A stretch of 22,965 bases of DNA, from IMG/VR virus record IMGVR_UViG_3300020371_000063, positions 1 to 22,965 of that record; one strand, given 5' to 3'. The notes below the pieces were generated by a model. The model saw nothing but the letters and a program-made list of their open reading frames with translations. It was not told where the DNA came from and did not search any database. The stretch is from a virus. Made by a program: the position numbers and the translations under genes. This document shows, in pieces, positions 1-22,965 of this stretch (position 1 is its first letter; each line of letters opens with the position of its first letter).

Positions 1-165
1 TTGTGTGCCACTGTAATCAATGAGATAAAGATACCCTGCTGGGTCTAACCAATACTGTGACATTGTGCCACCAAGACCGTCTTCCATGTCTTTGGTTTGG
101 CACTCTACTTCTGTGCAATGTGGACCTAAATCGTATGATGACCGAAAGTAATCAAACATTCCCAT
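1..165 (-). CDS. Small cyanophage protein of unknown function, 3' end beyond the window
   Basis: Reading leftward from an ATG at 163-165 the frame is open for 55 codons to the window edge, so the C-terminus is missing. The protein begins MGMFDYFRSSYDLG and contains QTKDMEDG and QYWLDPAGYLYLIDY, a pattern I associate with a small conserved protein of T4-like cyanophages whose function is not known. Its ATG overlaps the TAA of the DUF4385 gene (TAATG), which supports translational coupling. An AGGAG lies just before the first ATG. It is better spaced for the second Met (ATG at 157-159), and a GGAGG further upstream suits the first, so the exact start is open. The aromatic and acidic composition gives no membrane segment. 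Confidence 0.75.
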   Translation of the reverse strand, partial: MGMFDYFRSSYDLGPHCTEVECQTKDMEDGLGGTMSQYWLDPAGYLYLIDYSGTQ

Positions 166-659
166 TACTCCTGTGACCTCCATTCCTGGCGCATCTGTTT
201 GTATATAGGGTCATTGGCAACCAAGTCACGGACAACTTTAAAGATTGATGCACACATTGCTTTTTCATTAGTGAGAGCATCAGTTTCTTGTGGTAATATA
301 GGAGTGCCACCTCTATCACCAGTGTGGTAATAAGGTGGCTTGGTTACATATTTGCGACCAGACTTGTGGTTAGCATAGCGTCTAGAGCGAGTGAAACCCA
401 TCTCTAGAAACTTGCGACACATATCCATGCCGATAAAGTCTTTGTCTTCTTTGTATTTGTTATACAGGTTGTAAATGGTCCTAGAAGAATCCTCTGCTAT
501 AGGGATACTTCTAAACCTCCAATAACGTCGAATATCGTTAGTGTAAGGGCGTACCAGTAGCACTCCTTGCTCTCCCCTTCCAATACGATAAAGTTTGCGA
601 GTTTCTGCATCCGTGAAGTCAAGTTGCTCATAATCCAGGTCATAATCAAACTCTTTCAT
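165..659 (-). CDS. DUF4385 family protein
   Basis: The 164-residue protein matches the DUF4385 pattern as I know it. An acidic N-terminus (FDYDLDYEQLDF) is followed by LYRIGRGEQGVLLVRPY near residues 24-39, a WRF motif near 47-49, and MCRKFLEMGFTRSRRYANH near 80-98. Length fits the family, which occurs in bacteria and marine phages and has no established biochemical role. It is soluble, with no signal peptide or membrane segment. The ATG at 657-659 overlaps the TGA of a 52-residue upstream gene (ATGA), and the TAA overlaps the start of the next gene, so it sits inside a coupled run. No strong ribosome-binding site is visible, which fits coupling. Family assignment is by motif memory, not by a search. 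Confidence 0.78.
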   Translation of the reverse strand: MKEFDYDLDYEQLDFTDAETRKLYRIGRGEQGVLLVRPYTNDIRRYWRFRSIPIAEDSSRTIYNLYNKYKEDKDFIGMDMCRKFLEMGFTRSRRYANHKSGRKYVTKPPYYHTGDRGGTPILPQETDALTNEKAMCASIFKVVRDLVANDPIYKQMRQEWRSQE

Positions 660-814
660 TGCATCCGATAACGATAGTCTCTGAGTTTTTGGACGAGTCG
701 TAGATGGTCTACAACTCCTGGTGCGATTTTTTCTCTTGCTCTTGCTACATCATGTGATGACATTGTTTCCAATGCCCTTAGGAGATGGTCAACTTCTTGG
801 ATTGATAGATTCAT
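656..814 (-). CDS. Small helical protein, 52 aa, function unknown
   Basis: The frame begins MNLSIQEVDHLLRALETM at an ATG at 812-814 and ends with TGA at 656-658, coding for 52 residues. It is too short for most gene callers. It exactly fills the space between two accepted genes, overlapping the upstream stop as TAATG and the downstream start as ATGA. This is the same junction style as its neighbours and is the main support. The product is amphipathic and basic toward its end (LRDYRYRMQ), probably two helices. I do not recognise a family, and no catalytic or metal-binding pattern is visible. Confidence 0.78.
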   Translation of the reverse strand: MNLSIQEVDHLLRALETMSSHDVARAREKIAPGVVDHLRLVQKLRDYRYRMQ

Positions 815-3743: not shown

Positions 3744-3764
3744 AATCACTGTCGCTACATTGTC

Positions 3765-4752: not shown

Positions 4753-5080
4753 TTACCAAGTGAGCTCCACTAGCGACATCAACTAATTCAACAGCGACAT
4801 AATAGTCTTTTTCGTTTTCATCCAAATCATCCTCTTGGGGAAACCATTCATTAAAAGCATCCTGTGCTTGCTGAATAGTTTGGAAGTAACAATATACTTC
4901 ACCCTTGTCTCTTAAACTAGAGACAACAGTGTTATCTGCTTTATTATAATAAAACTCCCAAATTTCGTCAGACCTCTTACCATCTACTCTGAGATGCATG
5001 ACTGGTCTACCAGCATTTTTTGAAAGTTGATATAACAAATCAACAGGATAGAAAAAATCTGTATTGTATGAAGTAATCAT
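4736..5080 (-). CDS. Hypothetical protein, 114 aa
   Basis: A 114-residue soluble protein whose ATG (5078-5080) overlaps the TGA of the 380-residue gene as ATGA. It contains aromatic-rich strands (EIWEFYYNKADNTVV, then GEVYCYFQTIQQAQDAFNEW) and an acidic linker (PQEDDLDENEKDYY) before a hydrophobic C-terminal strand (YVAVELVDVA). No domain is recognised. Tight coupling to the tail-assembly-like protein suggests late expression with the tail genes, but no functional statement is possible. Confidence 0.72.
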   Translation of the reverse strand: MITSYNTDFFYPVDLLYQLSKNAGRPVMHLRVDGKRSDEIWEFYYNKADNTVVSSLRDKGEVYCYFQTIQQAQDAFNEWFPQEDDLDENEKDYYVAVELVDVASGAHLVNGSQV

Positions 5081-6219
5081 TCTTCTTCAACCTCTTCTAG
5101 TAATCTCTCTGCTTCTTCATCCAAATCATGTTGGGCAGCTTGTGCTTTAGTATCTTCCACATATTTTGCCATAATATCAGCAATGCTATAACCTACATTA
5201 TACTCTGCTAGTTTAGCATTGATTGCATCAATTTTTGCATCAACTGATGCAAGTTGCTCATCTAAGAGAGACTTCATCGTGCCAGGAGTTTGGTCATCTT
5301 CAACTTCACCAACAGATTTATATCTAGTATAAACATCCATTGGGATAAGTTGTAGTCTTGCAAGACCTTCTTCAACCTGCTCAATATCTTCTGTTGGGTC
5401 ACCAATATTATTGTTGAATGGGAGTTTTAGCTTTCCTAAGACTTTAAGGATTTCAAGTTTAAATGACAATTCACCAAAATTCTTAGCAGTCTCTTCATAT
5501 CCCTGACAATCAACAGCGATTGCCATATCATTTAGTAGGGCATCAGTAGCATCTACATTAACCAAACTCTTCTTCAACTCTCCAAGCATAATCTCAAGAG
5601 TATCCTGAGGTCTTGGTGCAACAGGGACTGAAATATTGACAAAATCATTGTTTTGCCATGCTTCCGAATCTGTAATGTCTCGCCACTCTTGTCTATAAGT
5701 CTTCCACTTCTGCTCCAAATCAGCATCTTTGAAAGTGTAGTCACTATTAAACATGAAGTCAGACCTATACAATGCCTCAAGCCTCATATTTTTTAGTTTC
5801 TGCTTCATGTATGACATGTCAGATAAATTCGACATGACAGTATCATAGAAGTCAGCAGTTTCAGCAACCTTCTTCACACCAAAGAAGTTTGTGACAACCT
5901 TAGACAAGTTTGCAACTTGTGCGTCGGTAGCAGCATCGTAGAAGTATGTCTTTTGCTCAGTTTCTTTTCTGCCAAAATTGTAGATGTCTTTACATCTCAC
6001 AGACATCCAAGTGTTATCTTCAAACAAAACGAATTGTGTAAGTCTATCCTTATCTGTATTCCAGACATCTGGAATAACTGCTAGTAGCTCATCATACAAA
6101 GCATCAGTAAGGTCTAACTTAGCCCCACGATACTGAATATATCTTTCTACTAATTCTGCGGGATATCTCTTTCGTTGCAACTTAAGAGATAACACACGAT
6201 GGTGTGATTGTGTAGCCAT
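5077..6219 (-). CDS. Putative tail-fibre assembly chaperone-like protein, 380 aa
   Basis: The 380-residue protein carries at about 145-205 a segment reading MRLEALYRSDFMFNSDYTF, then KWKTYRQEWRDI, then FVNISVPVAPRPQ. This follows the pattern of phage tail assembly chaperones (an Arg-rich SDWT-type stretch, W-x-x-YRQ-x-LRDI, then a V-x-x-P-x-x-P end; PF16778-like). The rest is unrecognised: a basic N-terminus (SLKLQRKRYP), a middle helical region and an acidic coiled-coil-like C-terminus ending EEAERLLEEVEEE. Its position immediately downstream of three fibre genes fits a helper that trimerises or attaches fibres. The start is well defined: AAGGA with a seven-base spacer before ATG at 6217-6219, behind a late promoter-like box. 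It is longer than usual for the family. Confidence 0.6.
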   Translation of the reverse strand: MATQSHHRVLSLKLQRKRYPAELVERYIQYRGAKLDLTDALYDELLAVIPDVWNTDKDRLTQFVLFEDNTWMSVRCKDIYNFGRKETEQKTYFYDAATDAQVANLSKVVTNFFGVKKVAETADFYDTVMSNLSDMSYMKQKLKNMRLEALYRSDFMFNSDYTFKDADLEQKWKTYRQEWRDITDSEAWQNNDFVNISVPVAPRPQDTLEIMLGELKKSLVNVDATDALLNDMAIAVDCQGYEETAKNFGELSFKLEILKVLGKLKLPFNNNIGDPTEDIEQVEEGLARLQLIPMDVYTRYKSVGEVEDDQTPGTMKSLLDEQLASVDAKIDAINAKLAEYNVGYSIADIMAKYVEDTKAQAAQHDLDEEAERLLEEVEEE

Positions 6220-6225
6220 CCTTTT

Positions 6226-6230: not shown

Positions 6231-6242
6231 TTTTGATAAAAT

Positions 6243-6249
6243 TATTTAG
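6243..6249 (-). promoter_or_regulatory. T4-type late promoter-like box (CTAAATA)
   Basis: CTAAATA on the minus strand is one base from the ATAAATA core of late promoters reported for T4-like cyanophages (T4 itself uses TATAAATA). It overlaps the TAA stop of the Ig fibre gene and lies 23 bases before the next ATG, leaving room for a transcription start and the AAGGA ribosome-binding site. The 6220-6242 leader is the second-longest gap between genes here. Confidence 0.5.
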
Positions 6250-9200
6250 TATGCTTTAATCAAATACTTTAATCTGAAGTATGGAGAATTGAGAGGTATC
6301 TTCTCATTATTCCTCAAGTAAAAATCTAGGTTATTATTCATGATAGATGCATTAGCACCAGTAAATCTCAATGTAGTATCACTGATATTCATACCAGCAT
6401 CAGTTACCATATTAAAACTTCCTGGTCCAATATCAGTAGCCGTGTGAGCATGGTCTTCACCTAACGTTGTTGTAGAGTTTTCAAGAGACCCGCCATCACC
6501 AGTGGTAAATTTAAATGTGCCACCATTTAATTTTTCATATGTGCTAAAACAACTTGCATTACTAATAGGTTGTGTTTCTCTCCACCCTACAGCGACAGCT
6601 TGGTGAGTATGTGTTGGTAGGTCGGTGAAAGCAGGACTAGGATTAGCAACAGAATATGACACTGTGCCAGCCAATGATGGTTGAGCAAATGTAGTCACAT
6701 CTTCGACACCTTCGGTTTGATAAGACCCGATACTAAATGTTGCTGCATTAGTAGACCCATCTGCTGTGCCATCAGGTTGACCAGAAAGACCAGGAGACCC
6801 TGGTGGTAACTGAGCAGACTTAACATAGTTGAAGACACCACCCATACTACCAGGGACATTTTTATCACCACCAGATACGCCAGCTGCATCAAAAGTAGGC
6901 ACAACAGATACAGACCCTGAATTATTATTTACATTACCAGTGCCAATCATTCTCTTACCATATGTTTCTGGCAATTTAAATGTACTCCCAGAAGAATAAT
7001 TTGGGAAAGTGCCACTGATAGACCCACCAAATTTGGTGCCAAACATTCTCGCCAACTCTGGATATTGTAATGCATTTTTGGAATCACCTTTTAATGGTAG
7101 ATAACCTGGGAATCTATCCAACTTCCATCTATTAACATCATCAGAACCTGCAGATGGGTTGTTAACATATCCAGGTGGTTTAGCGACACATATCACCGAC
7201 CCTATGGCTGCTCCAGTTTTAGCAGTTTCATCAGAGTAATATGTTGGGACAGAGGGTGCCGAAGTTACCGAAATTGTAATCGGCACAGTATAAGTAGCAC
7301 CAGATACAGTATTGGTAACTACTGTATTATTTCTAGAATATCGATGCTGGGTGCAATCAGTTAGTGTAATTAAACATTTATAAACTTTACCATTATATGC
7401 TGAGGTGATATTAGGTATGACTAAACTAGACCCTGTTTCTCCCAAGGGACCATTAGCACTTCCAGTATCTTCCACCCATGAATATGATGGTGTGCCACCA
7501 GTAAAAGATGGATTTAAGTCAATAGTTAAATTATCGCCAAGAGTAACAGTTTTTGTTGCCTGGTCAGCAAAATAAGTAAATCTTCTAATAACAGTCACTG
7601 TGCATTCGTTTGTATATACTTGACCAGGGACATCTGGTGCTGTCATTTTACACCTAATTTTAGCACCACTATCAGTGCTAGTATCAAGTGCTCTCAAAAC
7701 ATATATTCTACTAGTATCAACACTATTGTTATTTCCAGACCCAATAGGACTAAACGAAGAATCTCCCGTCCTCTTAATTTCCCACTGATATGCAACTTCT
7801 GTACTAATTGAAGATAATCCTTCACATTCAAAAGTATATTCTGCTGGATTTCCTTCTAAAATTGAAATGGAAGTTACAATATTAGTAACAATGCTGATAT
7901 TGACTTCCTCCATGGTAAGTTTTGCAGCATTACTATATAATACTTCTCCACCAGCTGAAGTACATTTCACACGATAAAATGCCTCATCAGAACTGCCAAT
8001 ACTCAATAAAGTAAGAGAAGAGCTAGTTTGTCCTGAAATATTAGACCATGTGCCAGTATTAGTTGATGTATTATAGTTTGTGCTCTTTTCCCACTGATAA
8101 CTAATTGGTCCAGCAGAAACAGAAGATGCAGTAACACTAAACGTATGGTTTGCAAACTCTCTAACAACAACATCATTTAATGCTGACAGTGCAGTAAATA
8201 AATCCTTCAATAATATAAGCTCTGCTACTTCTGAAGTTACAGATGATAGTTGTCCAGGAATACTCAACACACATCTGAAATATTTGTAGGTGAGAGAAGT
8301 TGGGACTGGACTGATGTTTAGTAAGTTAGAAGTTACTCCACTATATGGCGATGTGTTGGTGATATTTGTCCAACCAGTGGCAGAATTAGCAGTATTATAT
8401 TGCCACTGATATGTAATATCATTAACATTTCCACTGGAAGGTGTTGCAGTTACAGAGAATCCCGTAGAGTAATTCGGATATTGTGATGCATCTCCTGGTT
8501 GGTTTGTTACATAAACTGTAGGATAAACATTAACGTCAATCTCATTTGAATAATATGGAGTAATTGTTTTATTTCCTCCACTCAAAGTAAATCTTGAGGA
8601 AGATTCAACCTTCACTCTATATTTTGCACCATCATCAGTTGACACACGAAGAGGTGGTGTTTGGATATTAAGATCAATCTCTTCCGCACCAAGAGTGTTT
8701 GGAAACTGTGTATAACTTACTAGACCATTTTCTGTGGTAACTGTTACTGGAGCGGGGTCTGCTAAATCTGTCCATGTGGATGACCCAGGATCCTGACGTT
8801 GCCATGTATAAGTATTATTACCATTCTGACCAGTATTTCTCTGGATATCCTGTGTTGCATTAATACTAATACTCTGCACAGGGTCATTTACATAAATGTC
8901 TCTATCCGTGATATCGCCATATCTATCTTCCACAATATCATATGTAGTGGCAGAAAAATCAACTGTGCCCTCCACATCTGTCATGAAAATATAATGTGGT
9001 GTTGTTGTTACCGATGCTTCACCATTTGTGCCTTGAATTACACACCTAAATCCAGGATTATCATAGTAAATAAACCTTTCCAATTCTAATACATCAGTGT
9101 CAGCAGTTGTCCCTGATTTTAATTGAAAGACGTAAAAACTTGTAATTTGGTCAATATCATACCACTCTCCAGTGCCACCTACACCAGAAAAATTAACTTG

Positions 9201-10052
9201 CCATGTATAATCCAAAGCAGTGCCTGCTGTAGTCAAAGCACTAACAGACATTCTTACATCACCACTACCTGGAACACCTGTTTTGAAGCAATTTGTAGAT
9301 TGCGTATCATTTGCATCAACTCCAGGTTGTCTAATAATATTGATTACTGGGTCAATAATTAATTGTGAAACAGATGATGTTACTGGTGTGTTTAATGCTC
9401 CTGTATAAGATACTAATACTCTATATTGATTTTGATTACGAGTATATGTAAGATTAGCAATACTTAAGGTGGAATATTTCATCCATGTTGTCGCACCAGT
9501 AATCTGAGAAATCGTATCAGAAATAGTGATGTCACCCGTAGTGGACAAAACAGTCCATGTGCTTCCACTATCACTACTCTCTTGCCATTGGAAACTTAAA
9601 TTACTAACCAATGTATTATTTGTAATATCAGCATTTGCAAGAGATGCTGATACTGTTAATACTAGAGTACTTCCAACACTTTTAACTTGTGAGGTAGGTA
9701 AAAAATCTACCGCTCCATCGACATTTAGAAGAATACTCGGGTCTTGATAAACCGAAACAATTCTATCACCAATACCAGCAACTTCATTACTATTTACTAT
9801 TTCACTAGTTGTGCTAACAACACATCTATAGTAAATTCCAGTTTGTGATGCTGTTAACGGTCCTGTATCATAACTATTGCTAGTGTTATTTGAGAGACCA
9901 GAAGAGCTGTAATTTACACCATCCGTAGAATATTGCCATTCATAACTCAAGGCAAGTCCAGTATCTTCGGACGCACCAATATTAAATACCACACTACTGC
10001 CAGCTGGCGTAGTGGGAGATGTTGGTGTTAAACTGGTAATTACAATTGCCAT
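6246..10052 (-). CDS. Ig-like domain fibre protein with tail-collar C-terminus, 1268 aa
   Basis: About eight tandem immunoglobulin-like domains of 90-130 residues cover residues 1-930. Each shows the core Trp in a YxWQ/E-type strand (W39, W156, W284, W417, W550, W654, W757, W859) and the Y-x-C/V strand near its end (for example YYRC at 74-77, FRC at 335-337, YKC at 891-893). The first-sheet Cys is missing in most; domain 7 has C743 and C801 and could form the canonical disulfide. Residues about 945-1030 are collar-like (GTKFGGSISGTFPNYS, then STFKLPET). Two H-x-H sites follow at 1148-1150 and 1201-1203, and the C-terminus is LKYLIKAY. This is a virion adhesin or fibre: Ig stalk for weak carbohydrate or cell-surface binding, collar-type tip for attachment. 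The start is ATG 10050-10052 with no clear ribosome-binding site, four bases after the previous stop. Confidence 0.85.
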   Translation of the reverse strand: MAIVITSLTPTSPTTPAGSSVVFNIGASEDTGLALSYEWQYSTDGVNYSSSGLSNNTSNSYDTGPLTASQTGIYYRCVVSTTSEIVNSNEVAGIGDRIVSVYQDPSILLNVDGAVDFLPTSQVKSVGSTLVLTVSASLANADITNNTLVSNLSFQWQESSDSGSTWTVLSTTGDITISDTISQITGATTWMKYSTLSIANLTYTRNQNQYRVLVSYTGALNTPVTSSVSQLIIDPVINIIRQPGVDANDTQSTNCFKTGVPGSGDVRMSVSALTTAGTALDYTWQVNFSGVGGTGEWYDIDQITSFYVFQLKSGTTADTDVLELERFIYYDNPGFRCVIQGTNGEASVTTTPHYIFMTDVEGTVDFSATTYDIVEDRYGDITDRDIYVNDPVQSISINATQDIQRNTGQNGNNTYTWQRQDPGSSTWTDLADPAPVTVTTENGLVSYTQFPNTLGAEEIDLNIQTPPLRVSTDDGAKYRVKVESSSRFTLSGGNKTITPYYSNEIDVNVYPTVYVTNQPGDASQYPNYSTGFSVTATPSSGNVNDITYQWQYNTANSATGWTNITNTSPYSGVTSNLLNISPVPTSLTYKYFRCVLSIPGQLSSVTSEVAELILLKDLFTALSALNDVVVREFANHTFSVTASSVSAGPISYQWEKSTNYNTSTNTGTWSNISGQTSSSLTLLSIGSSDEAFYRVKCTSAGGEVLYSNAAKLTMEEVNISIVTNIVTSISILEGNPAEYTFECEGLSSISTEVAYQWEIKRTGDSSFSPIGSGNNNSVDTSRIYVLRALDTSTDSGAKIRCKMTAPDVPGQVYTNECTVTVIRRFTYFADQATKTVTLGDNLTIDLNPSFTGGTPSYSWVEDTGSANGPLGETGSSLVIPNITSAYNGKVYKCLITLTDCTQHRYSRNNTVVTNTVSGATYTVPITISVTSAPSVPTYYSDETAKTGAAIGSVICVAKPPGYVNNPSAGSDDVNRWKLDRFPGYLPLKGDSKNALQYPELARMFGTKFGGSISGTFPNYSSGSTFKLPETYGKRMIGTGNVNNNSGSVSVVPTFDAAGVSGGDKNVPGSMGGVFNYVKSAQLPPGSPGLSGQPDGTADGSTNAATFSIGSYQTEGVEDVTTFAQPSLAGTVSYSVANPSPAFTDLPTHTHQAVAVGWRETQPISNASCFSTYEKLNGGTFKFTTGDGGSLENSTTTLGEDHAHTATDIGPGSFNMVTDAGMNISDTTLRFTGANASIMNNNLDFYLRNNEKIPLNSPYFRLKYLIKAY

Positions 10053-10056
10053 GTTT

Positions 10057-10959
10057 TTAGAATTTAATTAGATATTCTGCGATAATAAATCTTGGTGAAA
10101 TGTCATCCATTTTAGCAAGGTCTCTAGTCCTCATCTGCACAGTTGTAGATAGACTGGAGGATGGAAGTTTAACTGCTGGAATAGTGCTAGTTGGTCCAGA
10201 TGCAGTTGCAGTTGGAGTAGCTAGACCATGGTCATGTGCAGTATCCTCTCCAGAATCTTCATAATTAATTTGGACGTGTTGCACACCCGCAATTCTTTCA
10301 CCCTCAGCAAAACTTCCACGATTTCCACAATAGTAACCACCATTCCATCTGCATCTTCTCAATGCTTGGTTGTTTTGGTTAACTGCTTTACCAATAGTGT
10401 AAGTACCTAAGTGTCCATGAGAAACAAAGTTACCAATAGTTAAGGTAGTTTCAGGCGTCCTTGTTGGTGGTGATTTAAATCTCCATTGACCAGTAAATGA
10501 TAATGTTACCGCAGGAGCAGAAAACTCACCAGTATATCCAAATTCAACCTCTTCTGATGCCGAAGTTAACGTTACAGCAACACCTGCTCTATCAATAGTA
10601 TTATTAGCAGAATCTTTGGTAGTAGAGTTGATATATTGACCAGGGTTACTAGAAGCAGTAATAAATTTACTGCCTAAATCTGGCAACTGAAATGTGCCTC
10701 CTGTGCCATCTTCTGCAGCTTCTTCTAAAGTAGTGTCCGCTTTTCTGTAAATAGATTGAGAACCTACACCTAATACTTCTGCTAAAGCTGGATATTGGTC
10801 AGCCTGTAGTATTTGACCTCTGCACTTTAAAAATCCAGCAGGACAGAAATCTCTATAATCTTGGTCAACTGGGATTAAACCATTAATATCAGCAAAAAAT
10901 GGGAAGATAGTACCTGTTGGTCCCCCATGCTTCCCTTTCTCGAATGAATAAGTTTTCAT
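10057..10959 (-). CDS. Tail-collar domain fibre protein, 300 aa
   Basis: The N-terminal part has a collar-like arrangement: GTIFPFFADINGLIP, a CPAGFLKCRGQ motif at 39-49, YPALAEVLG at 56-64 and GGTFQLPDLGSKFI at 87-100, as in PF07484 proteins. Then comes a beta-rich stretch. H-x-H motifs occur at 181-183 (SHGHLG) and 242-244 (HDHG), with RC at 202-203 and a second Cys at 211 between them. The C-terminus AEYLIKF parallels the two neighbouring collar proteins. H-x-H repeats coordinate iron in the T4 gp37 fibre tip, so metal-stabilised trimerisation is plausible. It starts at ATG 10957-10959, directly abutting the previous gene. Likely a short fibre or adhesin subunit on the baseplate. Confidence 0.8.
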   Translation of the reverse strand: MKTYSFEKGKHGGPTGTIFPFFADINGLIPVDQDYRDFCPAGFLKCRGQILQADQYPALAEVLGVGSQSIYRKADTTLEEAAEDGTGGTFQLPDLGSKFITASSNPGQYINSTTKDSANNTIDRAGVAVTLTSASEEVEFGYTGEFSAPAVTLSFTGQWRFKSPPTRTPETTLTIGNFVSHGHLGTYTIGKAVNQNNQALRRCRWNGGYYCGNRGSFAEGERIAGVQHVQINYEDSGEDTAHDHGLATPTATASGPTSTIPAVKLPSSSLSTTVQMRTRDLAKMDDISPRFIIAEYLIKF

Positions 10960-10960
10960 C

Positions 10961-12082: not shown

Positions 12083-12086
12083 AGAC

Positions 12087-15000
12087 TTAAATCTCCATTA
12101 AGAACCAACCTTGCTGCTCGCCAGCAATACCGTTGCCATCTGCATCAGTATCACCAACATAGATGAGACCGAAAGCAGCATTTGGTGTGTTAACAACCAA
12201 TTCACCACCACCGTAGTTAGAAGCGCCACCGAGACTACTACCAGTTGCTCCACCTTGGAGTTTAGTGCCAAGAGGTGCTCTTACAACCAAATTAACGTTG
12301 AAGTTAAGGTTGCCGCCAACATCAACAACTCTGATGGTATCACCAGTAATTGCTTCAGATGGTAAACGTAGGACCAAGGTAGAAGAAGGTCTTACGAGAT
12401 ACTGTAGGTTTGACTTAAGTTCGACTGCACTAGAATCATTGTTACCTTGTGTAGAAACAAAGATTGTCTTTCTACCACCATTTTTGTTATAGAAGTTTTC
12501 ATGACCAAATGCCTCGATAGAAGCGTCACCTCTAATTCTATATGGTTTAGCGTTATTATTACCTAGGTTATTGACGCTGAAGTAGTTAGTGCCAACAGAA
12601 GGAGAGTTGGTATATGTGCCGTGGACGGTAAGAGTTGCACCAGTAGCAGCAGATGACAATGCTCTACCAACAACTGTTGTGCCTAATTGAGCATCAACAG
12701 AGAATCTTGTAGTAAACGCATTGCTGCTAGTTTCAGCATTTGCTGAATTTGTTAGAGTGCCAACAGTTAAGTCATCACCAGCTCTCAATGTGCCTGCTAC
12801 CTTGGTGTTACCAGTTGCACCTAGGACTTCAAGGGCAATGTTTGTAGCAGCATCAGTCCTACTCTTATCAAAGTTTCCTGTAGCAAAGAAGGAATCCTTG
12901 AAGATTTTGAAGTCTGCGCCGTTGTATAGTTTGGTATCACCAGAAGCAGACTCAACGTAGAATTTAGGTAGAGTGCCGTTAGTAATTACAAAGTATTGCT
13001 TACCAGGATTGCTGGTATCAGTGTTACCACTCAACTCAATAGAGTTGTGGACTGTTAGGTTACCACCACCACTTGTCTGGAGAGTAGACCCAGTTGCAGT
13101 GCTGCTAGATTTACCTGTAGCATCAGCAAAATTCTGGTCATTTGTTGCATTGATGAATGGTTTCGAGGTATCATAACCGATAACAACGTCACCAGTCATT
13201 TGTGTCTGACCAGTTGTCGAGATTACCTTAAAGACCTGAAGTGCCTCCTTAGCAGCAGCTGCCGTGCCAAAGTCACCATTGTTAATAGTAAATGACTGTG
13301 CGTCAGCTGGGTTGATAACAGTAATCTTGACGTATTCACCACCATTGTCTAGGTCAGTCTTATTCAATCTGAATAGGTCACCGACTTTGATGTTAGCAGA
13401 GAATTCAGCAACATTAATAACTGAATCCGTCTGAGTAATTGGTGATGGGAAGATATAAGAAGCATTTTGCTGCTCAATCAATCTAAAGATTCTAGAAGAA
13501 TCTTCGTGTGCAGCAGCTGCGCTACCTCTTTGTGCTCTAATAACTTGGACAGAATATGGGACTGGAGCATCTGGGACGAGTGATGTTGGATAGTCAACTG
13601 TCTTGACAATTTCAGCATCAATCAATAGGAGTTGGTTAATGCTTACGCCCAATGGACTGTTGAGAGGCAACTCATAAATTTCCTGACCATCAGTTGTTGT
13701 AGCGCCTGTCTTGAAGGTATCATCACCCCAAGGTAGGTCACCAACTGTGTCAATTCTGGTAGCTTGTAGTTGGATTCTTGCTGTGCCAGCATCAGTCGTG
13801 CCAGTTGCCAATCCGATAGTGATAGGATTATCAGAAGAATCTTTAAGGGTAAATCCTGCAGAATCTCTATCATCAATATAGTATGTGGTATTGGCGGTCA
13901 CACCAGTTAAGCTACCAACATCAAAGAAGACAACAGCATCATTTGCACTATATGGTGCAGATGCTACGATTAGTTTGTTGCTAGAGACTGTAGAAATGTC
14001 TACCAATCCATCAAGATTCTCAACTACTGAGAAGTAGTCAATATTGAGGTTTGCAAGACTACCAACTGCCTGGTTGATACCAGTAGTTCTGATAACAGTA
14101 CCTGTAGCAGCTGTTGTTGCAACATCCGCACCTGTATTAGTATATGTAAATGTATTGGTGCCAGTAACAGTAATAGCAACTGGTCCTGCAGGATTGAAGG
14201 AATTGAAACTGGTTTCAATTTCAACCAAAGTTCCAGCAGGAATTCCAATCAACGAATGCTGAGCACCTGTTGTAACAGTTGCAACGTTAGATGTTCTAGA
14301 AACGCTAGCAATTCTAATTAGACCTAAGACATCTCTTTCAATGCCAAGATTAGTATTCTTAAGACCACCATTCTGAGTCATATCTGACTCGAATAGAGAA
14401 GACCCTAAGACATGTAAACCATTTCTAATCTTAGAAGTACCTGCAACACCACCAATCTCTAGTGTGCCAACACTGAGACCAATCTGTAGTTTGGTGAGAC
14501 CACTCTCAAACATCTTAAACTCACCAGTTGGTGATGTGGTGTTAATTTCACCACCATTGACAGTCAATACACCATCAAGAATTGTCTGGAAGTTTTTAAC
14601 GTTAAAGAAACTATCTTGGTTATTAGTAAATGCTCCACCAACAGTAATTTTAGACTTATATGCGGTGTTGTTATTTGCTACTGTGCCAAGATTAATAATA
14701 GAATCAGTAGAAGAAGTATGGACATCTAATGTGGTAGCAGCAGTAGATGCTGTGCCAATGTCAATATTCTGGAATCCTGTAGCAAGATTACCAAGTTGAA
14801 TGTTTTGTGCATAACCAGCAACAGTTAAACCTGTCGTTGCTGACTGGTTAGCGATAGCAAAGTTTGTGCTGGTGGAGCGAATATCGCCACCATCAACATC
14901 AATATCAGATTCAAAGGTAAAGTCACCAGTAATCCTTGCATCACCAGAAACAACGAAGTTTTTATCTAGTGCTGCATCGTTGACGTTAATACCAACTCTA

Positions 15001-18000
15001 CCATTATCAATATCAGCAGTTGCACCCTCAGTTCTACCTGCCTGTGATAGAGTAGTAGTTGCAACTCTAAATTCTGCTGTAGAATCTTCATTTGAGCTGT
15101 CACCACCAACTAAAAGAGCATAATTAGATGCTACAGGTGTGCCACCAGTGCCATCAGATAGTGTTGTTTGCGTTCTACCACTAATGTATGTGGTGCCGAC
15201 AACATCAAGGTTTGCCCTTGGATATGTTGCCGTAGAAACAAATCCATCAGCATAATCTGTAGAAATTGCTCTAGCAACCGTATTAATACCAAGTCTATAA
15301 TCACCGTAAGTAGAAGTTTCTGTGCGAAGTGCTTCTGCACCAACAACACCAGTTTCCTTCCATTGAGACTCACTCAAAGAAATTTCAATAGTTGGTTGAG
15401 TGATACTAGAATTAACAGAATAAATGTATGGTCCACTACCAACCAGAGTCGTTTCAGAAGCTCTTTCAGTAATTAGATAAACATAACTATTAGATTCTAG
15501 ATATTCATAACCTTCAGCGGCGTTATTGTATACAGTGTGGACACCATTAAGTGTTGCTAATGTATCAATAGCACCAGTAATCTTAATTTGACTGGTTAGA
15601 GTAATACCTAGAGATGCTCCAGGGTTGCTAGCACTGAAGTTAACTTTACCAATCTGGAAGATTAGTTTGATAACGTTGAGGTTTGGATAGAATTCAACGC
15701 CAGTGATATCAAGTGCAGATTCATTACCAGCAGCGACTCTAAGAGTATATGGGACATACGAGTTGGCATATACCCAACCAAGTGACCCTGTAAATCCAAC
15801 TTCACCACCCTTGAATAGAATGTCACCAGATAGTGGGACAGAAGACCCAAACTGAATAGTCTGAGCAGAAGCAAATCTTGCCTTAGTGCCAGCAATATCC
15901 TGATTAGGTGCCATGTTATCAAGAGCAGACCTAAGAGTATATCTCTGTGTGCCTCTTGGATTGAGGTCAAAGATAGCAGCTCTGACTCTATTCTTATCGA
16001 TGATAATGTCACCAGCTCTTGTAGTATCAAGATTTTGGTCATCATCGCCAGGGAGGACACCCTGTCTAGTACCAGGACGTGATACGATTGTGAGTGAAGG
16101 AGGAGTCATCTTCGCTTCAAACTCAGGGTCAACGTTGACGATGACAGGTGAGTTGAAGAAATTAGATAGATTAGGTGGAGCGTTTAGAGTGATAATATTC
16201 TCAAACGTTACGGGGTCCTCAAAGACCGTAACGAGACTACCGAATTCACCGTCTTCCTGGTCTTCCTCTTCTAGAATTAGTGCATCTAGGAATTCTTCTT
16301 CACCAGTAATAGCGTTAATCTTACGATTACCAATATACAATTCACCGTTGGAGTTGATACCAGTGTAGAAGACGATACCTGCATCTTGCTTCTTAGCCTG
16401 TGCATAGTAATCCTGGACATCAGTTAGAATGACTGTTTGTCTAACAGGGAAACCAGTTGAATAGTTACCAGGACCGAAACCAAGGTATTCAAACGTGTGG
16501 TTACCAGCACGAGCGATAGATGGACGACGCAATTCAATATAGAGTTTCTGCTCTAGTGGGAATGCAGAGTCACCCGCAATAGGAATTAGTCTCTCTTCTG
16601 CACCAGATGACGCAGCACCAGTTTGTGCTTTAAGAGCATTTCCACCAGTATAAGTGTATTCACCAGACCCAGGATTATCGATGAAATCCTGGACCATTTC
16701 TTTGGTAGCAGAATTCTTGGCATCGTTAATCGTAACTAAACCATGGACGTAGTTATCTGCTGCACAAGTTGCTGCTTCTGGGTCGAGAAGTGTAGAATCT
16801 TGATTACCACCCTGGTCATCACTACCATCATACTGGAAGAGTAATGGGTCATTCTTGTAAGTGAGTGGATATAGTCTAGATACTGGCTGACTAAACTTGA
16901 AGTTTCTAAAGTTTTTGCCAACACCAGACCCAAGAGGTAGAGGTGAAATGTCACCACGGACGACAGTTAGATAGTAAACACCATCTTGCTGACGTGGGAT
17001 TCTTCTCTGAATCTCTTCGATGCTGTAAATGTAGTATGTTTCAGTTAGGTCAGATACATCTTCGACACTGACGATTCTATACTGTCTAGCAGCATCGTCA
17101 GTAACAACATCACCAGGAGTGATGCAGTAGACGTTAGATGCCTCAACACCATAGAGATATTCATCTTTGTCTTCTTTACCGAAGTTTGGTCTGTCTAGGA
17201 CTTCCGCAGTAACATCCGCCTGACCTGCAATAGACTGTCTGATGAAAGTTTGCTCTTTATCAGAGAAATCCAATTCCCCAACAACATTCTTAAGGATTAG
17301 ATAGTTAAACTCTTGCAGTCCACCTTCAACATTTTCATTACCAAACCAAGAATGGACAGTTGCACTACCTTCATAATCGCCATACCATGTAACTGTAGAC
17401 CCTTCAACAAAGTCACCGTTACCACCTTGAGGTTGGCCAACCTTGACTGTTACAAATCTCTCTGCCTTGAGTGACTCTAGGTCTAGACCATGGTCAAACA
17501 CAGTCATCTCTAGATAACCATCAGCATTAGTCCTTGCAGACTGAATAGTGAATGATACATTAGATTCTGTCTTTGTGCCTTCAATACGCTTAGCAAAGAC
17601 AGGATTGTATGGGTCATACTCAGTTAGAGCAGCAGTAACACCGAGTCTTTCTCTTGGTGATGGACCTTCTTCAAAGAATGTAGCATCCTTTTGGACACCT
17701 GCAGCAACTGGTTTGAGGAGTAGTTTCTGTGGTAGAAGTTTTCTCTTTTCGTCAGTCCTGATTCTGATTGCAAAACCTTCGAGTGGGTCTCTAACATCAT
17801 CACGATAGTTAGGAATAACATAACGTAGTTTATAGGTCTTATCTTCCTTCTCTCTAGTATCATCTGCTCTGTAGAAGAACGAGTCTGGAGTGCGGGGTGG
17901 TTTGTTAACATACAAACTACCTCTATTAGCATCAGACATCGTGATTCTATCATAAATCTCATTATTTGCAGTTAGAGACTTGATATACCAGCATGACTGT

Positions 18001-21000
18001 GCGGGGTCATAACCCAGAGGACTTCTCTTCTTAGTTGCGAAGACATGGAATGATTGACCACTTGGGAAGTTAAACTGGATAGCATTCTGCTTATCAATAG
18101 CATTCTGGACAGTAAGATATAGCGAGAATTCGTTATTCTTAGTGTAGGTTGCTGGGCGACCAACATAATATGGTCTGTCAATTTCTAATCTGTCACCAGT
18201 AGTCTTGGTAGGTAGAGTATCAAGAGCAGCACCAACCGCTTCACCATTAACTAGATTCTCTTCTAGTGGATAGAAGAAGACTTGCTGAATTTGGACACCA
18301 TTGATAGCGGTGTCAAAGACGTGATTAGTGGTGGTCTCAAATACTCTGGAGCTAACTAGTGAGCAAGTATAACGATGTAAGTCGTAGTTGACATCAGTTA
18401 GATATTGATGGACCTCAATTTTTACGTTGGGGTCAATCGTAGCAGTCTCAGATGAATAGATGTAGTTACCTGCTGTAGCATTCTCGATGCTAGTTGCAAG
18501 CATAAACGTCTGAGAATCATTGAATTGTGCTGTTGCACCACCAGAGGAGTAATCTTCTGGTTGTGTAATCTTACCAGGAGCAATGACATAATACTTGGTA
18601 TTAGTGTCAAATCCTTTAGGTAGTCTGACAAGACGCTTATCAACACTATCATTTGCTGCTTTAGGCACAAGTCTAACTGGTGTGCCAGTTTCCATATTAT
18701 GTGGGTTAGCACCACCAACACGGAATAGAGTTGCTCTAGTTGCAAAAGAAGAAGTATTGACTAGTTGAGAAACTAGAGGCTCTGCATCTACGCCATTACG
18801 GATGATGCTGTCAATGACACGCATCTTCTCAATAATAGCATCTTTGGTGCCTGCACACTTGTTATTACCAGTGTCCAAAGTAATGCTAGAATCTCTAACT
18901 GGTAAGAATCTCTGTAAATACTCTTCCGTGCCAGTATTTCTAGGAGGAATTGGACCAGTATTCTCTAGGGCATCAATAAGGATATCAAATTCTGTAGCAA
19001 TAGTATATGCTACATCTGCACAAACAGGAGTGCCAGCAGTTGCTGTATCAATAGTTAGGTCAAGTTGATAATTAAGGGTATTTGATGGGTCCTTAGTATA
19101 AAGTGGGTCTGTAGCAAGACCAGCGCCAGTCCTCCAATTACGCATTGCGAGAATAGCAAGGTCTCTTGCCTTCTTATAAGCGTATACACTAATGTTTAAC
19201 TCACCAACCAAGGAATATGCACCAGCATTATAGTTGACCGCAGGTAATGCTAGAGCAGAGTTATTGAGTTTATCTAGTAAAATAGAGAATAGAGTATCAA
19301 TGGCATTTCTGACATCCAAACATGCATTAACATTATCATTAGGGACTACAACACCAGGGACAGATAAATCTGCCTGACCAGCAGTAATATCCAAATCTCT
19401 AACATTGAGTTGGTTTGTTACTGCTAAGAAACAGAGGTCTCTTGCTTTTTGGAATGCAGTAACAGACTGTGGGATTTCACCAGATAAAGAGCTATTTAAT
19501 GTATTGCCAGTGCTGTCAAAGTATGACAATGTTGCCTGAATAGTATTGTAGTTACCACCCAATGCAAGGTCTTCTGCGATAGCATCAACGATAATGCCAA
19601 TGTCGCGCTTACACTTGGTTTGAATTGGTGGAGCACTACCGTAGTTAATTTCTGGCAACGCAGGATTCTGAGCAGTGCCAGTAATCATGTCACCTTGACG
19701 AATTCTAGCAAATACGATAGAAGATAGAGTGTCAATGGTTGCTTGGACGTTAGAGCAAGACTGCGAATCTTGATTATTCGTTGTATCACCCTGAGTGCCA
19801 AATACACTGAGACCAGATCCAGGATTTCCTGGTTGTGGGTCTCCAGTAATAGTCAAATCTTTCACAAACAATTGGTTTGTGATTGCAAGTTTCATTGTAT
19901 TTGCAGCACTAGTAAATGCTGCCAATGATTGCTCCTCTTCTCCCTGCAATCCTGCAGTAATCCATGCAATCTCAGATGTAGATACTGTTACTGTAATATC
20001 ATCTGCAATATCTACGCCGCCAATAGAAGACCCAGGAATGACAACCGTATCGCCGTTATCATAATCGTATCCACCAGATACAACCGATACGGAATCTACT
20101 ACACCAGAAGAATCTCTAGTAACACGGAATGTTGCACCTTCGCCATCTCCGCTGGTAGTAGTTTCAACTCCATTATAAATTCTATCTGCTCTGTTTAGGA
20201 GAGTTGTGCCAGCATTGTTTGTGAAGGTAAGAATTTTACCATTAACTTTTCCATCAACAAAATACTGTCTTGCAAAGTCAATAGCATACGAGTTGCCTAG
20301 AGTAGTTAAGTCGGTTGAAATAGCATCAACAAACTTACCAATATCACGCTTACACTTAATCTCTCCAGCAGTCTGAATAGCACTTGGTGATTCATTAGGC
20401 AAACTGCTAGTGTTACCAGCACTAATAGTTGATGTAACGATTGCAGATAACGTGTCGATTGCTGCACGGACATTTGCACAAGATTGTGGTGAAGTATTGC
20501 TACCAGTTGCAGAGTCTGCAGTAATTGTAGTATCTTTTGCCGTTAACTGGTTTGTAATAGCAGACTTCATCAAATCACGAGCTTTGTTGAATGCTGTGAT
20601 TGTTTCTGTTTCTTCTCCTGTTAGTCCATTAGAAATAGGAGCACCAGAGTTATCAAAATAACTTAAAGTAAATTTGCGAGAATACTTGTTACCACCTGTA
20701 AATACGTCAAGAGATACAGAATCAATAAAGATGCCAATATCACGCAAACAAGATGCTGGCGATGGATTTACAAATCCAGGATGTTGGACTAAAATTTCAT
20801 CATATGCAGCTTGTGTAATCTCAGCCTTATTTGCTTGAATCAAACGATAAGAATCAGCAAATCTAGACCCATTATCTGTCTGCAAATCACCTGGGAAATA
20901 GAAGTCGGGATGCTGAATAGCAATATCTGCAGCCGCTCTATCGATAATGTGGTCTCTATTTTGTTGGATTAAACGATAAGAATCCTTGTAACGTGAATAT

Positions 21001-22965
21001 ACGTTAGTTTGTGCATCACCATTATTAGTGAATCCAGCGCCACCAAAGTAGAAATCTGGATATTCGATAGCAATTTGAGCAGCTGCTCTATCAATAATCT
21101 CTCTTCTGTTAGAAAGAATTAGATTTTTACCATCTCTAAATCTATCATCCGCACCAACATATGAAGTTGCCGCTTCTACAATGCCAGCGTTACCAAAATT
21201 GCTTAAATCTTCAATAACACCATCGAGAATCAGTTTGATATCTCTCTTACACTTAGTATCATCAGGGACATTCGTATTAGGGTCCCACTGTTTTGCAAGA
21301 ATAAGTGCTTCTTCTGCAATAAAATCTTTGTTTAATGCAATCAAAGCGCCTGCATCAAGACCTCTACCAGAGGACTGAGCAAACTTACCTTGATTTAAAT
21401 CAAATGTTAAAGTGATACCACCTGCAGCAGGTCCTGTTGCCTGAATGGTAGCAGTAGCATTTACAGTATCCGTATCAGCAGCGTTACCAAGTCTAATTTG
21501 TGTGGTGCTGATAATTTCCTTGACATATGTGTCAGCAGGAATTGGATTATTTTGACCAGTTGCAGGAGTTGCTTCAACTGTCATTCCCTCAACAATACCT
21601 ACTGTTGTAATGCCAGCAGGGACGTTTACCACATCACTGTTTAGAATAGTGCTGCAATTTTCAATGCGGAAATTCCAGTTACGCATTGCAGCAACTGCAA
21701 GACTTCTAGCATAGTTAAATGCATCTAGAGACTCTTCTTTTTCGCCTTCAATGAAGTCTAGATTATTACCAGTATAGTATGCTTGACCAGCTTGGACGCT
21801 ATTAACGTTACCACCAACGCGAAGGTCATTAGCGACTGCTTCTAAAATATATCCAACGTCTCTTTGACATTTTCTAATATTGATGCCTTCGCGTGTTAAC
21901 AGATATGGGAATTTGCGAGTGATATACCCATATGTTTCTGCAGCAATGAAATCTCTATTGATGTCAATAGTATTTGCAGCATCTTGGTCTTGATTTGAGA
22001 CAACAGAAGATGTTGAGGTTGGTGAAAGAATAGAAAGTGCAACTTCGTGCTTTCTATAACCAGCTGGAGAAATTTCAGCAGAGCGAATAGACCCAGTAAA
22101 ACCAGTAGCTGGGTCTAATTTTACATAAATTTTATCGCCTGATTTTGCACCAAGACGATAACCATTAACAGTGGTTGCAGGTTTTTGTAGTGGGTCACCT
22201 GATTCATCACTAGCTAGATACAATCTAACAATATTGTAACTAGGATTGGTAGTATCAATAGCACTACTACCTCTGATTTTAATTTGGTTGAAGGTGAAGT
22301 ATTGATACTTCTTAGTTGTAGTGGTAACTTTCTTTGGTGGGACAATGTGTGAGATGTAACCACCTTGGTCCTGGGAGAATGCATATCCCTTGTAACCAAT
22401 AGCATGTAAAGAGGTGTTACCGAAGTTGGAGTTAGAGTTGGTGATTGACATGTCACCACCTGACTCCATCAGGAAGTGGTCAGCGAAACCAACAGCGAAG
22501 ATAGAAACGTTTTGGATGAATGCATCATTAGATGCCTTAACGTGGAAGTTTCTCCATTCATCTTTCCAATATGCATCACCTTTGGTGTGATATGGAGTGG
22601 TTGCAAATGCATCAGTTAGAGGTGCCTGATTCCAAGTGTTGGAGAATTCATCATAGCGGATAAACGCACGGTCGTCTCTCTGTAGCGAAACACCCGTATA
22701 CTGTGCGATAACCATCGACTTGAAACCAGTCGCCTTGCTACCATCAGCATGGATACCACAAATACCCCAAGTGGAGCGAATAGAGACGTTAAAGACGTAT
22801 GGTGATGCAGATTCTACAGAGTCAATTTCTGCTTGTGTAGAAGCGTTAGTATCGAGGTCTGGAGGTGTGATAGGTGTGCCAACTTTATCGCCAAGACCAA
22901 CACCTGCAGCATTCTTACCGATAACACGATAAGTAAACTCTTTAGGGTCAGTAATACTAATAGAC
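12087..22965 (-). CDS. Giant virion fibre-like structural protein, 5' end beyond the window (at least 3,625 aa)
   Basis: The frame is open from the right edge (first full codon at 22962-22964) to TAA at 12087-12089, so the protein is larger than visible. An internal Met at 22713-22715 (MVIAQYTGVSLQRDDRAF) is not the start: the frame upstream continues with YRVIGKNAAGVGLGDK and SPYVFNVSIRSTWGICGIH, clearly coding. Layout from the N-terminus: a conserved part (22.2-22.9 kb, GFADHFLMESGGDMSITNS); helical tandem repeats with C-x-RDI motifs (18.96-21.89 kb); a long mixed region with aromatic beta segments (about 16.0-18.9 kb); then a beta-rich fibre-like region with many Gly/Thr/Asn strands (VTVGGAFTNNQDS-like) ending GWFLMEI. 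I associate this architecture with the very large tail-fibre or baseplate-attached proteins of cyanomyoviruses. It is likely a host-contact fibre; exact placement on the particle is unknown. Confidence 0.85.
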   Translation of the reverse strand, partial: SISITDPKEFTYRVIGKNAAGVGLGDKVGTPITPPDLDTNASTQAEIDSVESASPYVFNVSIRSTWGICGIHADGSKATGFKSMVIAQYTGVSLQRDDRAFIRYDEFSNTWNQAPLTDAFATTPYHTKGDAYWKDEWRNFHVKASNDAFIQNVSIFAVGFADHFLMESGGDMSITNSNSNFGNTSLHAIGYKGYAFSQDQGGYISHIVPPKKVTTTTKKYQYFTFNQIKIRGSSAIDTTNPSYNIVRLYLASDESGDPLQKPATTVNGYRLGAKSGDKIYVKLDPATGFTGSIRSAEISPAGYRKHEVALSILSPTSTSSVVSNQDQDAANTIDINRDFIAAETYGYITRKFPYLLTREGINIRKCQRDVGYILEAVANDLRVGGNVNSVQAGQAYYTGNNLDFIEGEKEESLDAFNYARSLAVAAMRNWNFRIENCSTILNSDVVNVPAGITTVGIVEGMTVEATPATGQNNPIPADTYVKEIISTTQIRLGNAADTDTVNATATIQATGPAAGGITLTFDLNQGKFAQSSGRGLDAGALIALNKDFIAEEALILAKQWDPNTNVPDDTKCKRDIKLILDGVIEDLSNFGNAGIVEAATSYVGADDRFRDGKNLILSNRREIIDRAAAQIAIEYPDFYFGGAGFTNNGDAQTNVYSRYKDSYRLIQQNRDHIIDRAAADIAIQHPDFYFPGDLQTDNGSRFADSYRLIQANKAEITQAAYDEILVQHPGFVNPSPASCLRDIGIFIDSVSLDVFTGGNKYSRKFTLSYFDNSGAPISNGLTGEETETITAFNKARDLMKSAITNQLTAKDTTITADSATGSNTSPQSCANVRAAIDTLSAIVTSTISAGNTSSLPNESPSAIQTAGEIKCKRDIGKFVDAISTDLTTLGNSYAIDFARQYFVDGKVNGKILTFTNNAGTTLLNRADRIYNGVETTTSGDGEGATFRVTRDSSGVVDSVSVVSGGYDYDNGDTVVIPGSSIGGVDIADDITVTVSTSEIAWITAGLQGEEEQSLAAFTSAANTMKLAITNQLFVKDLTITGDPQPGNPGSGLSVFGTQGDTTNNQDSQSCSNVQATIDTLSSIVFARIRQGDMITGTAQNPALPEINYGSAPPIQTKCKRDIGIIVDAIAEDLALGGNYNTIQATLSYFDSTGNTLNSSLSGEIPQSVTAFQKARDLCFLAVTNQLNVRDLDITAGQADLSVPGVVVPNDNVNACLDVRNAIDTLFSILLDKLNNSALALPAVNYNAGAYSLVGELNISVYAYKKARDLAILAMRNWRTGAGLATDPLYTKDPSNTLNYQLDLTIDTATAGTPVCADVAYTIATEFDILIDALENTGPIPPRNTGTEEYLQRFLPVRDSSITLDTGNNKCAGTKDAIIEKMRVIDSIIRNGVDAEPLVSQLVNTSSFATRATLFRVGGANPHNMETGTPVRLVPKAANDSVDKRLVRLPKGFDTNTKYYVIAPGKITQPEDYSSGGATAQFNDSQTFMLATSIENATAGNYIYSSETATIDPNVKIEVHQYLTDVNYDLHRYTCSLVSSRVFETTTNHVFDTAINGVQIQQVFFYPLEENLVNGEAVGAALDTLPTKTTGDRLEIDRPYYVGRPATYTKNNEFSLYLTVQNAIDKQNAIQFNFPSGQSFHVFATKKRSPLGYDPAQSCWYIKSLTANNEIYDRITMSDANRGSLYVNKPPRTPDSFFYRADDTREKEDKTYKLRYVIPNYRDDVRDPLEGFAIRIRTDEKRKLLPQKLLLKPVAAGVQKDATFFEEGPSPRERLGVTAALTEYDPYNPVFAKRIEGTKTESNVSFTIQSARTNADGYLEMTVFDHGLDLESLKAERFVTVKVGQPQGGNGDFVEGSTVTWYGDYEGSATVHSWFGNENVEGGLQEFNYLILKNVVGELDFSDKEQTFIRQSIAGQADVTAEVLDRPNFGKEDKDEYLYGVEASNVYCITPGDVVTDDAARQYRIVSVEDVSDLTETYYIYSIEEIQRRIPRQQDGVYYLTVVRGDISPLPLGSGVGKNFRNFKFSQPVSRLYPLTYKNDPLLFQYDGSDDQGGNQDSTLLDPEAATCAADNYVHGLVTINDAKNSATKEMVQDFIDNPGSGEYTYTGGNALKAQTGAASSGAEERLIPIAGDSAFPLEQKLYIELRRPSIARAGNHTFEYLGFGPGNYSTGFPVRQTVILTDVQDYYAQAKKQDAGIVFYTGINSNGELYIGNRKINAITGEEEFLDALILEEEDQEDGEFGSLVTVFEDPVTFENIITLNAPPNLSNFFNSPVIVNVDPEFEAKMTPPSLTIVSRPGTRQGVLPGDDDQNLDTTRAGDIIIDKNRVRAAIFDLNPRGTQRYTLRSALDNMAPNQDIAGTKARFASAQTIQFGSSVPLSGDILFKGGEVGFTGSLGWVYANSYVPYTLRVAAGNESALDITGVEFYPNLNVIKLIFQIGKVNFSASNPGASLGITLTSQIKITGAIDTLATLNGVHTVYNNAAEGYEYLESNSYVYLITERASETTLVGSGPYIYSVNSSITQPTIEISLSESQWKETGVVGAEALRTETSTYGDYRLGINTVARAISTDYADGFVSTATYPRANLDVVGTTYISGRTQTTLSDGTGGTPVASNYALLVGGDSSNEDSTAEFRVATTTLSQAGRTEGATADIDNGRVGINVNDAALDKNFVVSGDARITGDFTFESDIDVDGGDIRSTSTNFAIANQSATTGLTVAGYAQNIQLGNLATGFQNIDIGTASTAATTLDVHTSSTDSIINLGTVANNNTAYKSKITVGGAFTNNQDSFFNVKNFQTILDGVLTVNGGEINTTSPTGEFKMFESGLTKLQIGLSVGTLEIGGVAGTSKIRNGLHVLGSSLFESDMTQNGGLKNTNLGIERDVLGLIRIASVSRTSNVATVTTGAQHSLIGIPAGTLVEIETSFNSFNPAGPVAITVTGTNTFTYTNTGADVATTAATGTVIRTTGINQAVGSLANLNIDYFSVVENLDGLVDISTVSSNKLIVASAPYSANDAVVFFDVGSLTGVTANTTYYIDDRDSAGFTLKDSSDNPITIGLATGTTDAGTARIQLQATRIDTVGDLPWGDDTFKTGATTTDGQEIYELPLNSPLGVSINQLLLIDAEIVKTVDYPTSLVPDAPVPYSVQVIRAQRGSAAAAHEDSSRIFRLIEQQNASYIFPSPITQTDSVINVAEFSANIKVGDLFRLNKTDLDNGGEYVKITVINPADAQSFTINNGDFGTAAAAKEALQVFKVISTTGQTQMTGDVVIGYDTSKPFINATNDQNFADATGKSSSTATGSTLQTSGGGNLTVHNSIELSGNTDTSNPGKQYFVITNGTLPKFYVESASGDTKLYNGADFKIFKDSFFATGNFDKSRTDAATNIALEVLGATGNTKVAGTLRAGDDLTVGTLTNSANAETSSNAFTTRFSVDAQLGTTVVGRALSSAATGATLTVHGTYTNSPSVGTNYFSVNNLGNNNAKPYRIRGDASIEAFGHENFYNKNGGRKTIFVSTQGNNDSSAVELKSNLQYLVRPSSTLVLRLPSEAITGDTIRVVDVGGNLNFNVNLVVRAPLGTKLQGGATGSSLGGASNYGGGELVVNTPNAAFGLIYVGDTDADGNGIAGEQQGWFLMEI
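12091..12096 (-). promoter_or_regulatory. Ribosome-binding site of the 373-aa collar gene
   Basis: GGAGAT on the minus strand lies eight bases before ATG 12080-12082 and inside the last codons and stop of the giant gene, fixing this start and coupling translation of the two genes. Confidence 0.65.
19975..20165 (-). other. Beta domain inserted into one helical repeat
   Basis: Within the fourth C-x-RDI unit lies a Gly/Asp-rich stretch encoding GEGATFRVTRDSSG, then SVVSGGYDYDNGDTVVI, then SIGGVDIADDITVTV. Its GG-Y-x-Y-x-x-GD pattern marks a small beta domain found scattered in phage structural proteins. It interrupts the expected helix order, and the unit is about 115 codons longer than its neighbour. 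Confidence 0.6.
20775..21150 (-). repeat. Three-copy sub-repeat (RAAADIA...HPDFYF type)
   Basis: Between the second and third C-x-RDI units three consecutive segments share the plan RF/Y-x-DSYRLIQ-x-N-x-x-x-IIDRAAADIAI-x-HPDFYF. Copies one and two are closely similar (REIIDRAAAQIAIEYPDFYF; HIIDRAAADIAIQHPDFYF) also at the DNA level, and the third is worn (AYDEILVQHPGF). Units are about 40-50 residues, a helix pair followed by a Pro-Asp-aromatic turn. Confidence 0.75.

Follow-up and report, generated by a model that had tools for sequence, protein, structure and literature searches.

Complete restriction-modification (R-M) systems have been reported to be nearly absent from phages, with 9 in 831 genomes (PMC4176335). 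Closest to the system described here are those of the chloroviruses PBCV-1 and NY-2A (CviAI, CviJI and others), in which neighbouring genes of the virus encode a restriction endonuclease and a methyltransferase that recognise short sites (2-4 bp); degradation of host DNA has been proposed as the role of these restriction enzymes (PMC7019647). However, chloroviruses infect eukaryotic algae and protect their own DNA by methylation, whereas the present system belongs to tailed phages of cyanobacteria, its candidate endonuclease (R) has no sequence match to solved structures, and the phages have lost nearly all of their own sites. With orthodox type II systems it shares adjacent, overlapping genes, an E-x-K motif, a predicted fold (NaeI, EcoRV and SwaI being the relatives) and a PF01555 methyltransferase (M) resembling the beta-class N4-cytosine enzymes of the PvuII kind; it differs in that the R family is uncatalogued, that the avoided words are GWWC, GTWC or GAAC/GTTC, and that it has so far been seen in phage contigs only. 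Under-representation of type II sites in phage genomes has also been described (Rusinov et al. 2018, PMC6286503), but there the restricting enzyme is that of the host, whereas here the avoidance tracks an operon of the phage itself and includes non-palindromic words. In a comparative genomics paper, 14 of 16 cyanophages are listed with an N6A-methylase, and the passages concerned make no mention of restriction (PMC3037559). No description of GWWC, of cyanophage methylomes or of cyanophage restriction systems was found in the literature searched, the scope of which left aside most subscription papers and likewise REBASE. Type II R-M and its virus-borne cases are known; new would be an endonuclease family across virulent T4-like cyanophages, its varying specificity, and the purging of the carrier's own genome.

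The stretch of DNA analysed (the window, 22,965 bp) is a fragment of a T4-like cyanomyovirus (Kyanoviridae), as judged from its gene content: a 3542-aa protein (35-40% identity to its matches), a short tail fibre, a tail assembly chaperone, a tryptophan halogenase, a 2OG-Fe oxygenase and a DUF4385 protein all match this group (Table 1). An earlier note on the sequence had counted 5 GATC and 12 GTAC sites, and these counts and all 17 coordinates are exact. The depletion goes beyond chance, since a maximal-order Markov null predicts 95 and 78 sites, respectively, and shuffling of synonymous codons within each of 11 genes, which keeps proteins and codon usage, predicts 74.9 (z -11.1) and 75.4 (z -9.8). 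The two words are, however, only half of the motif. GTTC (7 versus 89 in the Markov null) and GAAC (6 versus 76) are equally rare, and the 13 GAAC/GTTC sites stand against 132.6 expected after codon shuffling (z -13.6), so that a reading restricted to GATC and GTAC is ruled out and the avoided object is GWWC, comprising all four words and thus partly non-palindromic. In total, about 90% of the GWWC sites have been removed (30 remaining versus about 280 in the codon-shuffled control, which does not reproduce the low counts), and none lies outside genes. When codon junctions were kept in a stricter shuffle, GAAC/GTTC, GATC and GTAC were still the three lowest. The depletion therefore exceeds codon and oligonucleotide constraints and is specific to GWWC. 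CTAG occurs at its Markov expectation; AGCT, which the earlier note had called common, is in fact low (34 versus 91 after codon shuffling). Low AGCT, AGCC and TGCA are found in every cyanomyovirus examined and represent background.

Table 1. Features of the window and their positions
Feature	Position	Strand	Remarks
GWWC depletion	1..22965	.	30 sites versus about 280, codon shuffling
DUF4385 gene, last gene of the window	165..659	-	synteny anchor
Tail assembly chaperone	5077..6219	-	R-M operon about 3.1 kb downstream of the homologue in L002-L004 (75% aa identity)
Fibre/collar trio (1268, 300 and 373 aa)	6246..12082	-	15 GWWC versus 84 expected
3542-aa tail protein of T4-like cyanomyoviruses	12087..22715	-	12 GWWC versus 148 expected; identifies the phage group
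Residual GATC sites (five)	8672..8675 (first), 8789, 11401, 12042, 19816	.	exact count
Residual GAAC/GTTC sites	4197, 7144 (7144..7147), 7990, 9272, 10760, 12102, 12419	.	missed by the earlier note
Residual GAAC/GTTC sites, continued	14086, 14230, 14293, 15031, 15172, 17877	.	

The fibre/collar trio had been singled out as a break in the pattern. It does hold 11 of the 17 GATC and GTAC sites (p = 0.008, post hoc) and half of the 30 GWWC sites, the rest of the window having 15 versus 197 expected (p = 0.026). Nevertheless, the trio is still depleted five- to sixfold, with GWWC ratios of 0.17-0.21 in its genes versus 0.08 in the 3542-aa gene, so that the depletion is mildly relaxed there, not broken, and the proposed recent exchange of the trio is a weak claim. 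The GWWC sites remaining in the window and in the clade A loci (defined below) favour the flanks AGWWCC/GGWWCT (O/E 0.26 versus about 0.1), and TGWWCA is absent from the window (0 versus 70 expected on both strands), which hints at a possible flank preference of the enzyme. A longer recognition site was considered and rejected: every flank is depleted, and the 4-bp core stands.

The earlier note had called for a comparison with related phages, and the close relatives share the depletion. Uncultured relatives in IMG/VR show 75-92% amino acid identity to the window, and GWWC O/E rises with distance, from 0.09-0.23 in the close clade through 0.4-0.6 in the sister clade to about 0.87 in distant relatives. 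A PF01555 DNA methyltransferase gene, preceded by R, is present in five of the close relatives. The window ends short of this operon and contains neither gene. In locus L131, however, a DUF4385 homologue of 92% identity lies 3.4 kb upstream of R, the putative restriction gene. Since the window closes with its DUF4385 gene, R would be expected about 3 kb beyond position 1. Nearest to the window are L009, L007 and L003 (81-82% nucleotide identity), with L005 and L023 outside (78%), and the contigs of L003, L005 and L023 contain both R and M. The window is thus bracketed in the family tree by operon-bearing relatives (G002, G004 and G020), from which we infer that its own genome carries the operon just beyond position 1.

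In L002 (contig G001) M begins within the last codons of the 238-aa open reading frame R (L002:14095-14811), with an overlap of 8 nt; in the close relatives R has 200-240 aa, lies upstream of M and likewise overlaps it by 8 nt. The M of L002 matches PF01555 with 147 bits. Its motifs SPPY (motif IV) and DPFMGSGTT (motif I) vary little or not at all among six phages, and their order is that of the beta class. Of the proteins with solved structures, N4-cytosine methyltransferases (8s9m, 8s9n) come closest to M in sequence; beta-class adenine enzymes and M.PvuII rank next. M is therefore likely to make N4-methylcytosine (m4C).

R of the L002 type has no match in Pfam, NCBIfam or PDB sequences, no PHROG at a usable score and no tblastn match in phages. 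The Syn9-type R was located via the neighbouring M: cultured phages with an M of about 70% identity (Syn9, Syn10, P-TIM40, S-MbCM6/25, S-H35, S-RIM4 and S-MS29) each have a hypothetical protein of 180-240 aa at the position of R, and a search with Syn9 gp61 retrieved 17 phage records, identical to the 17 with an M of at least 60% identity. From 80 viral contigs with M and five cultured loci, 82 loci were analysed; an upstream R of one family (single linkage) was present in 68 of them, overlapping M (usually by 2-20 nt) or closely preceding it. In other loci R either lay at a distance of 1-9 kb from M or did not turn up. The distant arrangement (L061, L063, L064 and L106) indicates that the pair can be split.

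In an alignment of 40 R proteins, T69, K74, G104-x-D106, E117-x-K119, G132-N133, K139 and W170 are invariant and G220 is kept as well, and this pattern of residues is that of the PD-(D/E)XK signature. AlphaFold models of the window clade's R and of Syn9 R reached pLDDT values of 91.8 and 82.7, and for both the top hit of a structural aligner was NaeI (Z 9.4 and 9.2, best matches by chance usually scoring 7-8); the next matches were mostly type II enzymes, including SwaI, EcoRV, BglI, SfiI, DpnI and HincII. Foldseek gave a weak best E value of 0.014, with restriction enzymes nonetheless in the top rows. On motif and predicted fold, R is best read as a candidate type II restriction endonuclease of a new PD-(D/E)XK family outside Pfam, NCBIfam, PHROGs and PDB sequences.

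The family has so far been seen in phage contigs only. A profile of the Syn9-type R matched just two contigs among 84,980 prokaryote species genomes, both cyanophage by gene content. Cyanophage genes are carried by L138, filed under the Euryarchaeota MAG TMED129, and by L139, filed under Nonlabens xiamenensis and nearly identical to P-TIM40 at the R-M genes; these are probably misassigned or co-sequenced phage contigs. Some loci encode further nuclease-like proteins. The contig of L138 has, in addition to R and M, an MvaI/BcnI-family restriction endonuclease (L138:12284-12970; PF15515, 124 bits), and directly after M there is a PDDEXK_5 endonuclease reading frame in L002 of the window's clade (L002:15649-16056; PF11645), and a weak PDDEXK_5 match follows M in S-MbCM6.

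Presence of the operon goes together with avoidance in cultured phages. Five carriers (Syn9, P-TIM40, S-MbCM6, S-H35 and S-MS29) have GAAC O/E values of 0.02-0.17 and GTAC values of 0.04-0.33, with GATC at 0.79-0.90, so that the avoided set of the Syn9 type is GTWC/GWAC. In ten cyanomyoviruses counted as non-carriers, in whose records (one of them partial) neither R nor a close M was found, GAAC is at 0.86-1.15 and GATC at 0.84-1.00; the difference in GAAC is significant (Mann-Whitney p = 0.0007, 5 versus 10). Phages of the same host differ in the same way, GAAC O/E being 0.21 in S-MbCM25 versus 1.03 in S-PM2 on WH7803, and 0.14 in S-MS29 versus 0.91 in S-H9-1 on MW02, which counts against host composition and host restriction as the cause. 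In virion genes, GAAC/GTTC numbers against codon-shuffled expectations are 37 versus 129 in Syn9 and 138 versus 134 in S-PM2. The avoidance is thus most likely due to the phage lineage's own R-M operon, aimed in the window's lineage at GWWC. The restriction-site avoidance proposed in the earlier note is well supported, with a broader motif and with the phage lineage's own operon rather than the host's as its source.

The version of the operon broadly goes with the avoided subset. Genomes with R of clades A and B avoid GWWC (GATC medians 0.09 and 0.26), those with clade C, the Syn9 type, avoid GTWC (GATC 0.92, GTAC 0.17, GAAC 0.09), and those with clades D and E avoid only GAAC/GTTC, with GATC near 1. 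In L124-L127 another E-x-K protein, probably another restriction enzyme, lies upstream of an M of 56-61% identity, and GATC and GTAC are depleted with GAAC at 0.78-1.02. The GATC state changes several times on the M and R trees. It should be noted that M and R have for the most part been inherited together, leaving few independent events behind the association of operon and avoidance, and that the avoided set cannot in every case be predicted from the type of R. The R proteins of L079 and L110 share 85-86% identity with the one in L057, a locus in which mainly GATC is depleted; L079 and L110 are Syn9-like genomes and avoid GTWC as their M and genome relatives do, and the M of L079 is 94% identical to that of L086. 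Either a recent swap of R or a contribution of other determinants is possible. Some carriers (L116/L117 and L118/L119) are weakly depleted. The specificities GWWC and GTWC attributed to R are those suggested by the avoidance patterns.

How the sites disappear can be followed by comparison with relatives: between the window and its relatives 18-30% of GWWC sites are conserved, versus 54-57% for the control CWWG. The changes affect all four positions and are mostly inner A>G and T>C, with C>T plus G>A in the minority. This fast turnover and this spectrum are what ongoing purging by selection would produce, rather than deamination of methylated cytosine. A mutational decay in which methylated cytosines or a neighbouring-base bias erase GWWC without selection would be in keeping with the many transitions among the changes, but the predominance of inner A/T changes excludes cytosine-methylation mutagenesis as the driver, and the codon-level nulls keep composition; we regard decay as very improbable. 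Still harder to credit is an artefact of codon usage or composition in AT-rich cyanophage genes. The generally low AGCT, AGCC and TGCA of cyanomyoviruses show that such effects exist, yet codon shuffling predicts about 280 GWWC where 30 are seen, CTAG is at expectation, and cyanomyoviruses of the same composition have GAAC and GATC O/E near 1; shuffles and same-composition phages together reject it.

Two further explanations concern the target of the restriction. In a range of bacteria, Dnd-type phosphorothioation systems modify GAAC/GTTC or GATC. The phages might accordingly be avoiding such a system (GAAC/GTTC, GATC, GTAC) or a restriction system of the host, with M as an added shield and R no endonuclease at all; avoidance of host sites is common among phages (PMC6286503), and their methyltransferases are often solitary (PMC4176335). 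We consider this improbable, since the phages without R-M on WH7803 and MW02 do not avoid GAAC, R and M occur together in all 17 cultured records, R has the motif and predicted fold of a restriction enzyme, its Syn9 type appeared among the prokaryote genomes in the two cyanophage contigs alone, and the avoided set changes with the operon version. Alternatively, the same operon could be directed at co-infecting or superinfecting phages and not at the host chromosome, the sites having been purged because sibling genomes are exposed to R while their methylation is still incomplete. Operon-free competing cyanomyoviruses do keep abundant GAAC sites, which would be cut; on the other hand, nothing in these non-carriers points to selection by R, and the chlorovirus restriction enzymes, when tested, degraded host DNA and were not responsible for mutual exclusion (PMC7019647). 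Such a purpose is therefore conceivable, though on balance unlikely.

The explanation that we favour, and hold with good though not full confidence, is that of a T4-like cyanomyovirus lineage with a type II R-M operon, the carriers of which purge its sites. R (about 200-240 aa) would be produced in translational coupling with M, a beta-class amino-methyltransferase that probably modifies N4 of cytosine. The R of the window's clade would recognise and cut GWWC, and its target during infection would probably be the host chromosome, the cleavage of which might supply nucleotides or shut down the host. The phage DNA would be protected by selection having removed nearly all GWWC sites, and by methylation of the few remaining ones by M. 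A fully working M should make avoidance needless, which counts against this explanation as it stands, and the purging in spite of M suggests that methylation may be late, partial or costly. A more general proposition, to which we give slightly less than even credence, is that in virulent cyanophages a fast-evolving R of changing specificity (GWWC, GTWC, GAAC/GTTC) stands beside a conserved M, and that self and non-self are told apart mainly through the loss of the target words from the phages' own genomes of 180 kb, methylation serving only for the leftovers.

Complete R-M systems thus appear to be carried by an entire group of T4-like phages that are abundant in the sea. They would have escaped notice because no catalogued family includes the endonuclease and because M was annotated as a lone methyltransferase. 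The operon would provide a specific enzyme for the way in which cyanophages dismantle host DNA without having base-modified genomes, it would yield candidate new restriction enzymes with specificities readable from the avoided words, and it would make self-recognition by site erasure directly testable.

Additional avoided words were seen in some of these phages. GTAC alone is almost absent from S-WAM2 (L036, 1-40000; O/E 0.03) and Syn1 (L136; 0.00), which have normal GAAC and GATC and are without R or M, so that another, GTAC-specific system is likely in these two. AGCT hardly occurs near the operon in L038-L041 and in most Syn9-type loci (O/E 0.00-0.12, versus 0.15-0.48 in non-carriers), and its scarcity in Syn9-type genomes is perhaps due to a second enzyme.
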